Below are positions 34,165-57,115 of a DNA stretch of 64,000 bases, piece after piece; within the stretch, counting starts at the first letter, position 1, and each line of letters starts with the position of its first letter. Location of the stretch: the NCBI GenBank assembly GCA_016906335.1, contig JADEYG010000009.1, positions 983,001 to 1,047,000 of the forward strand, given 5' to 3'. This stretch comes from Novakomyces olei (taxonomy: Eukaryota; Ascomycota; Novakomycetes; Novakomycetales; Novakomycetaceae). Made by a program: the position numbers and the translations under genes. The notes beneath the pieces were generated by a model, which worked only from the letters and a program-made list of their open reading frames with translations, ran no database searches and was not told where the DNA came from.

Positions 34165-35124
34165 TTATTCCGATTTAGAGTCAGAGTCAGACTCTGAACT
34201 TGAACTTGAATCTGAATCTGAATCTGAATCTGAATCTGAATCTGAATCTGAATCTGAATCTGAATCTGAATCTGAATCTGAATCTGAATCTGAATCTGAA
34301 TCTGAATCTGAATCTGAATCTGAATCTGAATCTGAATCTGAATCTGAATCTGAATCTGAATCTGAATCTGAACTCGAATCTGAATCTGATTCCTTCTTTG
34401 TTACGGATTCACCTAAAAGCGCTGCCTTTACAAGATCCAATCTCTCTGCAACGGCCTTGTCTACATCCTCCTTTGCCCGTGCTTCTTCCACATTATGTAA
34501 AAGTCTCTCCCGAGCTCCGCCCTGAACACTAGCGGCATAATGAACAACGAGTCCGTCATATTTATTAGAAAATTCAGGGGCAAAAATAAGCTTGAAGAAT
34601 TTTGTCTGCAGCGCTTTGGAAAATCGCCAATTTTCTCGATCATGTTTATACCGTGAAAGGTATTCGACCAGTGCAGTTTCACGGTTTCTTTGCTTTTCGT
34701 CTTCGTCTGTAACTTTGTTTGCTTTGCCTTTTTCATTATTGCCCTCTTGCTTTTTAAATTTGTCCTTCTTTTGATTGCTTTCCTCTTTCCCTAAAGTGTC
34801 TGCTTTGGCTGCTGCGACTGCTGCTTCACGTTTACGCGCCCGCCGCCGCCGTTTCATTTTCCGGTTTTTACGTGAATTTTTACCGGCTCGTTTAGCTTGT
34901 TTTTCATCTGTTTCATCTGTGCTTTTCGCATTGTCTTGTACAGAATCTCTAGGCGCGATTTTGGGTTTTTTATTGCTCGACTTCACATTGTCGTTGCCAA
35001 GTGAAACGGTGCCATTGTCCTTCGGCGCACTGCGTTTTTGAGCAGTACTGTTTTTGGTTTCTACGCTGCCTTTTATGGCTGCTGATGGGCCAGTCTTTAT
35101 GAATTGCTGCCATTTTGGCGGCAT
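34165..35124 (-). CDS. WKF-domain nucleolar-type protein (C7orf50 homologue)
   Basis: Single exon, 319 residues. The N-terminal half is highly basic (KNSRKNRKMKRRRRARKREA), suggesting nuclear or nucleolar location. The WKF domain lies at about residues 150-215: ALVEYLSRYKHDRENWRFSKALQTKFFKLIF, with WRFSK in the diagnostic position. The C-terminus is a Ser-Asp repeat of about 65 residues. Human C7orf50 and its fungal homologues share the WKF domain and are linked to ribosome biogenesis; that role is inferred here. The Ser-Asp tail is encoded by a near-perfect hexanucleotide repeat at about 34178-34393, so its length is probably variable between strains. Confidence 0.8.
   Translation of the reverse strand: MPPKWQQFIKTGPSAAIKGSVETKNSTAQKRSAPKDNGTVSLGNDNVKSSNKKPKIAPRDSVQDNAKSTDETDEKQAKRAGKNSRKNRKMKRRRRARKREAAVAAAKADTLGKEESNQKKDKFKKQEGNNEKGKANKVTDEDEKQRNRETALVEYLSRYKHDRENWRFSKALQTKFFKLIFAPEFSNKYDGLVVHYAASVQGGARERLLHNVEEARAKEDVDKAVAERLDLVKAALLGESVTKKESDSDSSSDSDSDSDSDSDSDSDSDSDSDSDSDSDSDSDSDSDSDSDSDSDSDSDSDSDSDSSSSSESDSDSKSE
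34178..34393. repeat. Coding (TCTGAA)n hexanucleotide repeat
   Basis: About 30 near-identical TCTGAA units on the plus strand encode the Ser-Asp tail of the WKF-domain protein on the minus strand. The opposite frame gives only an Asn-Leu repeat and is not a gene. Confidence 0.95.
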
Positions 35125-35846: not shown

Positions 35847-37261
35847 ATGCACTCCAGCTTAGGTCGCGTAAGCGGACTGCGTCAGAGCAGACTGCATTGG
35901 AACAAGAGTGTGCGTGGTTTGGAAAATTGCAGGAAAATGGCCTCAGTACCAAAGATCAAAGTGGCAAATCCTGTCGTTGAACTGGACGGCGATGAAATGA
36001 CACGAGTCATTTGGAAAGTGATCAAGGACAAGCTCATCTACCCTTATCTCGACATGGATATAAAGTACTACGACTTGGGTATCGAGCACCGTGATGCTAC
36101 GGACGATAAAGTTACAGTACAGGCGGCCGAAGCTATTCTGAAATATGGTAAATTGACTCTTACAAGATTGTCTATTCAAAACTTTATTTTTATTTTCAAA
36201 AACGGCGTATACTAAATAAATTAGACGTGGGAATCAAGTGTGCTACTATTACCCCTGACGAGGCTCGTGTAAAAGAGTTTAATTTGAAGAAAATGTGGCG
36301 ATCGCCTAATGGAACTATCCGCAATATTATTGGCGGCACAGTGTTCCGTGAACCCATTGTTATTCAATCCATCCCGCGTTTCGTGCCCGGCTGGACAAAG
36401 CCTATTACCATTGGCCGTCATGCCTTTGGCGATCAGTACCGGGCAACGGACTTCGTAGTGCAGGAACCTGGCCGGCTGGATCTTGTTTTTACTCCAAAGA
36501 ATGGATCCGAGGCAAAGACATATAACGTGTACGAGTTTCCAGAACATGGAGGCGTAGCCCTGGCCATGTACAATACTGAGGACTCTATTCGAGGCTTTGC
36601 CCGCTCTTCCTTTGAGCATGCATTAAGCAAAGGACTGCCTCTGTACTTGTCTACAAAGAACACGATCCTCAAGGCTTATGATGGCCGTTTCAAGGACATA
36701 TTCGCAGAACTTTATGAAAAGGAGTATCGTGATGCGTATGAGAAGAAGGGGATCTGGTATGAACACCGATTGATTGATGATATGGTTGCTCAAGCTATAA
36801 AGTCCAACGGCGGCTTTGTGTGGGCTTGCAAAAACTATGATGGAGACGTGCAGTCAGACATTGTAGCCCAGGGTTATGGATCTCTAGGTTTAATGACGTC
36901 AGTGTTGGTACATCCTAACGGTCGTACAGTCGAGGCTGAAGCTGCTCATGGAACTGTACAGCGCCATTATCAGCAGTACAAGCAAGGAAAGCCTACCAGT
37001 ACGAATTCGATTGCCTCTATTTTCGCCTGGACCCGTGGATTGGCTCAGCGAGGTCGTCTTGACAAAAACGAGGAGCTGCAAGCTTTCGCTACCGCTGTGG
37101 AAAATGCTTGTGTATCTACGGTGGAAGCTGGAATAATGACAAAGGATCTGATGCTCATCCGCGGTGCCAAGTCAGGCTGGGTCGATACATTTGAGTTTCT
37201 CGATGCTGTTGCTGATCGCGTACGTGATGCAGTCTCGACCGGGCTGAAGAGTAAACTGTAA
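35847..37261 (+). CDS. IDP1: NADP+-dependent isocitrate dehydrogenase
   Basis: Exons 35847-36147 and 36225-37261; the intron is 77 nt. From the first ATG the protein has 445 residues, from the in-frame ATG at 35937 it has 415. The core starts [21 protein letters not shown], typical of dimeric eukaryotic NADP-IDH. Visible active-site blocks include [18 protein letters not shown] (substrate Ser/Asn), [12 protein letters not shown], and [22 protein letters not shown] with the metal-binding Asp residues. NADP specificity fits [20 protein letters not shown]. The enzyme makes 2-oxoglutarate and NADPH. The 30-residue extension [20 protein letters not shown] has many Arg/Ser and no acidic residue, like a mitochondrial presequence, so one gene may give two compartments. 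Confidence 0.93.
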
Positions 37262-54830: not shown

Positions 54831-55559
54831 GGTCTGCAATGCAGACGATTATAAACGATACACGCTGGCGACAGTTGAGATGTGTATGGATGAATGAAGA
54901 GTCTTTACAAGGTTTGGTTCAAACTCTAACTAAAAACAAGTCATAGACAGTTTGGAGCCATAGACAGTTTGGAAGCTTTTGTGTGGAGAATTATTTAATA
55001 AACACGCGCAATTTCCTAGAATGCGGGGCCAATTTCCGTGATTAATGTCGTGAGTGGTACGGTAGCTTATTGTTATCAAGAATAATTGGATTTTCTTTGC
55101 AGGTGTAACAAACCGTAAATTGCTCTTTAAATCTCAATCGTACTTGCGCTTTTGTCGCGAAAATGGGTTAATACCAAAACCTTAATCGGTCGCAGCGCGT
55201 GTCCGTTCACGTGCAGACCAGGGAAAACCCTGATTTACATAGAACTATGATTTCACTCAAAAAGTCTCACAATGCAATCACCCTGTAAACCACTATAGAA
55301 AACCACTATAGAAAACCACTACATAGAATAACCCCTCCCAAAAGAAAACCCTGTTGGAAGAATTTCCTTTTTGATCTTTAACCGCTCGTGTATAAAGATT
55401 CGCATATATAAGGACACGTTGCGCAATTGTGACACGTGGCGCTTTCTTCGCCGTAGACTTGCTTAGTCTGTGGTGGAGAATAGCATCAGCCAAAGCTATA
55501 AACTCTTTGAGCAGACAGGACACTGCCCACATCGATCTCTATTTGCCGCGTCGAAAAGC
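54831..55559. promoter_or_regulatory. FAT1 3' end and HAC1 promoter/leader
   Basis: A 0.73 kb gap. A 14-bp repeat with AACCACTATAGAA cores lies at about 55285-55325. TATATA at 55404-55409 and two GACACGT elements at 55413-55442 sit close to HAC1. A non-ATG frame extends the HAC1 frame upstream but lacks a start codon. Confidence 0.5.
55413..55442 (+). promoter_or_regulatory. Duplicated GACACGT(T/G)GCGC element, candidate UPR element
   Basis: GACACGTTGCGC (55413-55424) and GACACGTGGCGC (55431-55442) are direct repeats 18 bp apart, start to start, about 120-150 bp upstream of the HAC1 ATG. ACGTG cores are bound by Hac1/XBP1-type bZIPs, so autoregulation is plausible. No experimental support is available. 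Confidence 0.45.
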
Positions 55560-56416
55560 ATGTCGGCCTCAACGTTGAGTCCGTCGTTAAAACGTACGCA
55601 CGAGGATCTTTTACTGGGCGAGAGCAACTGCGCTCCCTCTGCCTCGGAAGACGGGTTATCTCCGATGGACACCTTGTCACCTCCGAAACAGCGTCGGACT
55701 AAAGCGCGTACAGTGGAGGAAAAGCAGCGTAAGGCCGATGAACGGAGTGAACGGAACCGGCGCGCCGCTAAAGAATCCCGAAATCGGCATCGCGAGTACG
55801 TGGAAAGTTTAGAGGGACAAGTGAAGAGCCTAAAGGACGAGAACACCGGATTACGGAAGAATCAGTCCATATTAGAATCACGTATTACTGCGCTGGAAAA
55901 GCTTTTGTGTGGAAATTCTAAGAATGAGGCATTAGTCAACAGCGATAAAGAAAACAATAAAAATGAAGATGGATCTGTGAGCGATTTGAGCGATTTTAGT
56001 GATTGTTCCGCTTCTCCTTCCAAGTCTTGTACTTCGTCATCAGCATTATTCAACGACGATCAAAGTGACGTTCAAAACTCACAAGGATTAGGTACAGATT
56101 TCGATGCTATTGATGAGCCCCTGTTCCCTCTACCTTGCACGAATAATTTTACATTAAACGACAAGGACGTTTTTGGGTACTCGTCTGCCTTCGAAGCCAG
56201 TATGCTTGATCTTCACCGTCCTGCAGCGACGGTGGGAGCCACAGTATCCACCAGCCTTGATGGATCTGCTGTGGCCGACCGGCAGTGTCGATCGAGCAAT
56301 TCCCTGGTTTTGAAACAGGTGATGTTTTTGAGTATCCATCTGGCTTCAACGACACTGGCGTCGATTCAGTTTTTCCACAGTTTATTGGGGCTGATGACTC
56401 CTTAAGTGTTCATTGA
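55560..56416 (+). CDS. HAC1: HAC1/XBP1-type bZIP factor of the unfolded protein response
   Basis: The start is ATG 55560. The bZIP spans about residues 45-110: basic region ERNRRAAKESRNRHREYVES with the Asn-x7-Arg pattern, then a leucine zipper (LEGQVKSLKDENTGLRKNQS). A Ser/Asp/Asn-rich region follows. The gene is assigned to HAC1 chiefly by its intron, 56224-56282 (59 nt). It is bounded by two 7-nt loops, CTGCAGC and CGGCAGT, each cut after the third base as in CNG^CNGN. Removing it shifts the frame, giving 265 residues with a 43-residue acidic tail that begins VSIEQFPGFETGDVFEYP and stops at 56416. Unspliced mRNA reads a different tail and stops at 56405 (281 residues). Hac1 induces ER chaperone and secretory genes after Ire1 splices its mRNA. 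Confidence 0.88.
56214..56290 (+). other. Ire1-type noncanonical intron with both splice-site stem-loops
   Basis: The 5' site is a perfect 7-bp stem, CACCGTC (56214-56220) with GACGGTG (56228-56234), extendable by two G-U pairs, enclosing loop CTGCAGC. The 3' site has stem CGAC (56276-56279) with GTCG (56287-56290), enclosing loop CGGCAGT (56280-56286). Cleavage after CTG and CGG removes 56224-56282. The 59-nt length is not a multiple of three, so splicing changes the frame. GT..AG spliceosomal signals are absent at these borders. Confidence 0.88.

Positions 56417-56929: not shown

Positions 56930-57115
<186 letters not shown>

Follow-up and report, generated by a model that had tools for sequence, protein, structure and literature searches.

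A putative 59-nt Ire1-type intron with a predicted internal hairpin in a HAC1 homologue of Novakomyces olei

The Ire1-type introns of HAC1 and related bZIP genes come in very different lengths. The excerpted text of PMC10608004 gives 19 nt for C. albicans, 29 for Y. lipolytica, 177 for H. polymorpha, 252 for S. cerevisiae and 297 for K. lactis, and an excerpt of PMC6222058 places budding-yeast HAC1 introns between 19 and about 850 nt (the upper figure being reached in the CTG clade) and divides HAC1 introns into classes of under 50, 50-500 and over 500 nt. The intron of N. crassa measures 23 nt (PMC4488935), and that of C. neoformans HXL1 measures 56 nt (PMC3154848; PMC6116095). The short introns of hacA/HAC1 and XBP1 (19-29 nt) combine twin 7-nt loops with a frame change and a new C-terminal tail (PMC4488935, PMC4891664, PMC10608004), and the long Saccharomyces-type introns of S. 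cerevisiae and K. lactis are reported to dampen translation and to form base pairs with the 5' UTR (PMC10608004, PMC6116095). Joining the cut halves of the message falls to Trl1 in yeast and to RtcB in animals, according to the excerpt of PMC4891664.

The window analyzed here is a stretch of 64,000 nucleotides of Novakomyces olei (C9:983001-1047000; the genome comprises 15 contigs with 14.34 Mb in all). It contains a bZIP gene which, judged from its sequence, is very probably a HAC1 orthologue carrying an Ire1-type intron (Table 1). The initial annotation had proposed such an intron in a HAC1 homologue, and the putative intron is supported by the sequence-level tests: the bZIP domain, the twin loops, the predicted structure, the frame change, the coding signal of the second frame and a complete Ire1 gene elsewhere in the genome.

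The closest counterpart in size is HXL1 of Cryptococcus neoformans, likewise a bZIP gene whose two intron borders carry loops within a predicted stem-loop structure, with an intron of near-equal length and, in the excerpt of PMC3154848, without complementarity of the intron to the 5' UTR. The two differ in that HXL1 is placed by that paper at a large phylogenetic distance from Hac1, whereas the Novakomyces bZIP resembles Hac1. With the short introns of hacA/HAC1 and XBP1, the locus shares the twin 7-nt loops, the frame change and the new C-terminal tail, and it would also share their length, 21 nt, once a predicted arm of 38 nt is left out; unlike them, it has this predicted arm, a hairpin that separates the two splice hairpins. 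Ire1 loops, a frame change and a Hac1-type bZIP are held in common with the Saccharomyces-type genes, but pairing of the Novakomyces intron with the 5' UTR is at chance level (see below), and the intron contains no in-frame stop, as in 5 of the 32 species surveyed in PMC8002603.

The initial annotation had further suggested that, at 59 nt, this lineage has an intron size of its own. That suggestion does not stand against the 56 nt of Cryptococcus HXL1 (PMC3154848, PMC6116095) and the recognized class of 50-500 nt (PMC6222058), at least as these are given in the excerpts; because of these two precedents, a length of 59 nt is uncommon without being unique. None of the papers listed in literature searches on this length mentions it, and no claim is made that the intron is unpublished. 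On the structural model described below, the locus would be a known switch with an uncommon intron size and an extra internal hairpin, and the unusual part is a hairpin of 38 nt predicted within the intron, beside which a core of 21 nt remains.

Table 1. Features of the HAC1 locus (window positions)
Feature	Position	Strand	Basis or remark
HAC1 unspliced frame	55560..56405	+	ATG at 55560, stop ends 56405, 281 aa plus stop
bZIP domain, residues 54-114	55719..55901	+	PF00170, 40.8 bits, E 2.4e-10
Exon 1 of proposed spliced mRNA	55560..56223	+	frame arithmetic
Proposed Ire1 intron, 59 nt	56224..56282	+	loop positions and frame arithmetic
Exon 2 in the spliced frame: acidic tail of 44 new residues, then stop	56283..56416	+	codon score +17.9 bits; net charge -8
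5' splice hairpin, loop 56221-56227 CTG^CAGC, expected cut after 56223	56212..56236	+	motif, pairing, fold
3' splice hairpin, loop 56280-56286 CGG^CAGT, expected cut after 56282	56276..56290	+	motif, pairing; outer pair weak
Closing stem, 5' arm	56203..56211	+	pairs with 56290-56298, probabilities 0.54-1.0; one T-G pair; persists in contexts as long as 1141 nt
Closing stem, 3' arm	56290..56298	+	pair probabilities, fold in varied contexts
Internal hairpin arm, 38 nt	56238..56275	+	-18.6 kcal/mol, 0/1000 shuffles equally stable

The bZIP domain lies upstream of the proposed intron. A genome-wide search with PF00170 gave 14 bZIP or zipper-like loci at E <= 1, eight of them above the cut-off, and among these 14 only the HAC1 locus significantly matched the bZIP of S. 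cerevisiae Hac1 (E 3.1e-5; next 0.16), in a comparison limited to the bZIP part. Upstream of the gene are two CACGTG palindromes, at 55208-55213 and 55433-55438, which have an ACGTG core in common with UPRE2, given as TACGTGT in the excerpt of PMC8002603. On the other side, a few hundred bases 3' of the HAC1 stop codon, lies a 186-nt run of ATT repeats (56930-57115).

The two splice sites were recognized by inspection of the sequence as exact seven-base CNG^CNGN loops on stems, and this description holds. The 5' hairpin, CACCGTC-CTGCAGC-GACGGTG, has 7 Watson-Crick pairs (9 when two G-U pairs are included), and the 3' hairpin, CGAC-CGGCAGT-GTCG, has 4. Counting both strands, the window has 692 CNGCNGN heptamers, of which 7 are flanked by at least 4 Watson-Crick pairs, and the HAC1 twin loops are the only pair of such hairpins spaced 15-900 nt apart on either strand. 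Elsewhere in the genome, 28 other loci (184,096 strand-bases; a set that leaves out three loci overlapping HAC1 or each other) yielded 4 such hairpins and no pair. Twin hairpins also seldom arise from the composition of the gene itself, appearing in 3 of 5000 synonymous-codon permutations of the HAC1 ORF and in 1 of 5000 dinucleotide shuffles.

Excision of the 59 nt between the two expected cuts converts the frame of 281 aa into one of 265 aa with a new acidic tail. The spliced frame has 221 full codons before the junction codon and 44 residues from the junction codon on. Frame arithmetic thus reproduces everything that had been claimed at this point, namely the length of 59 nt, the frame change, and 44 codons followed by a stop. 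The acidic composition attributed to the second frame is likewise borne out, the net charge of -8 being carried by 43 residues.

Codon usage provides a second line of evidence on exon 2. A score was built from codon frequencies in 14 other window ORFs. By this measure, exon 2 reaches +17.9 bits in the spliced frame (43 codons), as compared to -1.2 bits in the unspliced frame (40 codons) and -12.7 bits in the third frame, which contains stops. None of 396 frame-shifted 43-codon pieces of neighbouring genes attains the spliced-frame value, and 92% of 198 true-frame pieces score at or below it, the pieces coming from the same ORFs that built the score and not being held out. For the unspliced frame, 3.5% of true pieces have an equal or lower score, and 12% of shifted pieces an equal or higher one. 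The codon use of the exon 2 tail is therefore strongly coding in the spliced frame.

Two overlapping frames could in principle be connected in ways other than by Ire1. An assembly or sequencing indel, or ribosomal frameshifting, might produce the same arrangement, and the geometry allows it, in that no stop interrupts the exon 2 frame once the one at 56258 has been passed, and any frame shift between 56261 and the start of exon 2 would link both frames. This explanation is nonetheless very improbable, as it leaves unaccounted for the presence of two exact and well-placed Ire1 loops, with a stable common fold, in the sole Hac1-like bZIP. An ordinary spliceosomal GT-AG intron, with the twin loops being incidental, could also change the frame, and the genome does have spliceosomal introns, an example being the 77-nt intron at 36148-36224 in the isocitrate dehydrogenase gene (GTAAAT...TACTAA...TAG). 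However, a scan for 5' site, branch and 3' site that detects the isocitrate dehydrogenase intron gave no HAC1 intron that would connect exon 1 with the frame of exon 2; the sole candidate in the gene, of 66 nt at 55800-55865, falls within the coding part of the bZIP and keeps the frame. On the basis of this looser scan a spliceosomal intron is regarded as extremely improbable. A stricter scan found no intron in HAC1 but missed the isocitrate dehydrogenase intron as well, and was not used.

Excision by Ire1 is the reading favoured here. The intron region was folded, as the initial annotation had suggested. The segment 56195-56310 is predicted to be stable beyond its shuffles (z = -3.87, with 0 of 200 shuffles equally stable) and to form a four-way junction composed of a closing stem, the 5' hairpin, an internal hairpin and the 3' hairpin. 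The four helices keep mean pair probabilities of 0.93-0.99 when the length of the folded context is varied between 96 and 1141 nt, the figure for the 3' hairpin referring to its three inner pairs. Neither the closing stem nor the internal hairpin figured in the initial annotation. The weak point of the prediction is the outermost pair of the 3' hairpin, 56276-56290, with a probability of only 0.12 as compared to 0.92-0.93 for the other three; this is because base 56290 prefers the closing stem, whose innermost pair, 56211-56290, competes with the hairpin. In addition, the minimum-energy form of the 3' hairpin has an extra pair within the loop, and forcing the form with 4 bp and a 7-nt loop costs 2.6 kcal/mol.

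Stability was also compared with nulls that respect the codons. When the exons were resampled and the intron shuffled, 1 of 1000 sequences folded at least equally well; with synonymous resampling of the whole stretch, read in the unspliced frame, the number rose to 16 of 1000. In view of the latter value, the structural support, which comes from a fold predicted from one sequence, is good but not overwhelming.

Without the 38-nt arm, the intron consists of 21 nt (56224-56237 plus 56276-56282). We infer that the arm may take up the additional length, so that Ire1 would see the geometry of a short intron. If so, the locus suggests a rule by which intron length may vary provided that the extra bases fold into an arm keeping the Ire1 hairpins side by side.

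The Rfam family RF04247 (bZIP non canonical Hac1/Xbp1 intron) aligns to 56203-56298 with both loops covered and an insert of 38 nt between its two hairpins, the insert starting and ending one base ahead of the internal hairpin. The score is 18.4 bits (E 3.7 over all families), below the gathering threshold of 41, and the HAC1 intron is therefore not filed under this family. It would appear to work like the RF04247 members despite the sub-threshold score. As a genome-wide detector the family was dropped, because a search of the genome with it (922 candidates, 73 scored) gave no match at E <= 10, the HAC1 site included; we think that the long insert is responsible for this miss.

Two further properties that an unspliced message might have were considered and not retained. 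The first is a translational block by pairing with the 5' UTR, in the style of S. cerevisiae. With the 5' UTR assumed to extend over 55380-55559, its best duplex with the intron does not exceed chance expectation, as 406 of 500 shuffled introns do equally well, and such a block is not supported. The second is a membrane-tethering tail like that of XBP1u. The unspliced protein does end in 40 residues of some hydrophobicity (best 19-residue mean 1.47), but this is no more than the frame geometry gives, as stop-free 40-residue pieces of other window genes are equally or more hydrophobic in 15 of 93 cases for the same +1 shift, 1 of 73 for the +2 shift and 12 of 213 for the true frame. On a fungal Hac1u tail, a literature search gave nothing among the matches listed, as far as their excerpts go, which is no proof of absence.

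One Ire1 was found in the genome, a protein of 1187 aa with kinase and KEN RNase domains (contig C1, L003:2075-5638, minus strand), whose best PDB matches include 2rio and 3fbv. In the alignment it keeps the residues at S. cerevisiae positions Y1043, R1056, N1057 and H1061, which we take to be the catalytic residues of Ire1, and its counterparts of E988, K992 and Y1059 are S, D and R (the S. cerevisiae numbering was counted by hand from Y1059 and K992). According to the excerpted text of Li et al. 2021 (PMC8104961), D or E at 992 together with K or R at 1059 is an S. pombe-like pattern tied to broad cleavage, present in 175 of 230 orthologues including the human protein, and an S. cerevisiae Ire1 double mutant cut both HAC1 loops and decay-type loops. 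The pattern is thus common and in itself not surprising. From the D/R interface pair, the Novakomyces enzyme is predicted to be able both to splice and to degrade mRNA.

This pattern bears on the possibility that Ire1 cuts the HAC1 mRNA for decay (RIDD) only, with no productive splicing. The broad-cleavage residues would be in keeping with such an activity, but they occur equally in the human enzyme and in most of the orthologues counted in PMC8104961, and the double mutant described there still cut HAC1 loops; furthermore, the paired loops and the coding second frame fit splicing. Decay alone is accordingly regarded as extremely improbable. Productive splicing is the preferred reading, and a more specific version of it, in which a 21-nt core intron gained a 38-nt structural arm and is cut by an Ire1 doing both splicing and RIDD, is possible, although we rate it at somewhat less than an even chance. 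Because a splice-type HAC1 and an Ire1 of the broad-cleavage pattern occur in one fungus, splicing and mRNA decay could be sought together.

The course of events that we infer is as follows. In unstressed cells the mRNA would retain the 59-nt intron, and any translation would give the 281-aa protein with its different tail. When unfolded proteins accumulate in the ER, Ire1 would cut both seven-base loops, in each case between the third base and the fourth. The two splice hairpins would at this stage lie side by side in the four-way junction, whose closing stem is formed by the exons, and with the 38-nt arm absorbing the extra length, Ire1 would meet a core of 21 nt that resembles the short introns found in moulds and animals. 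Rejoining of the exons by a ligase would shift the frame and yield the 265-aa bZIP factor, in which the 44-residue acidic tail is probably an activation domain.

The identity of the ligase was approached by searches for the two known enzymes. RtcB had no match in the 14.3-Mb genome, in a search that matched in 9 of 14 control genomes. Trl1 had no match with three Pfam domain models, but these matched none of the control genomes, so that absence is not shown, and none with the S. cerevisiae Trl1 protein, a query run without a control. As DNA patterns, two Trl1 motifs, lacking a positive control, occurred at 14 places (KANGC) and 3 places (KxNGCI), none of them Trl1-like. Tpt1, the phosphotransferase that follows Trl1 in the tRNA splicing pathway, is present (E 2.8e-49). 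Its match (L032) spans two genomic stop codons, which probably mark a short intron. We think that Trl1 was missed by the searches or lies outside the assembly; that Ire1 cuts the message and some RNA ligase recognizable as neither Trl1 nor RtcB seals the exons is very improbable.

Two other genes of the window deserve brief mention. A minus-strand ORF at 34165-35124 has a C-terminal part that consists of a long Ser-Asp repeat encoded by TCAGAT units. The best matches of an alcohol dehydrogenase encoded in the window are 5yat, 7kcq and 4w6z, which are yeast enzymes.
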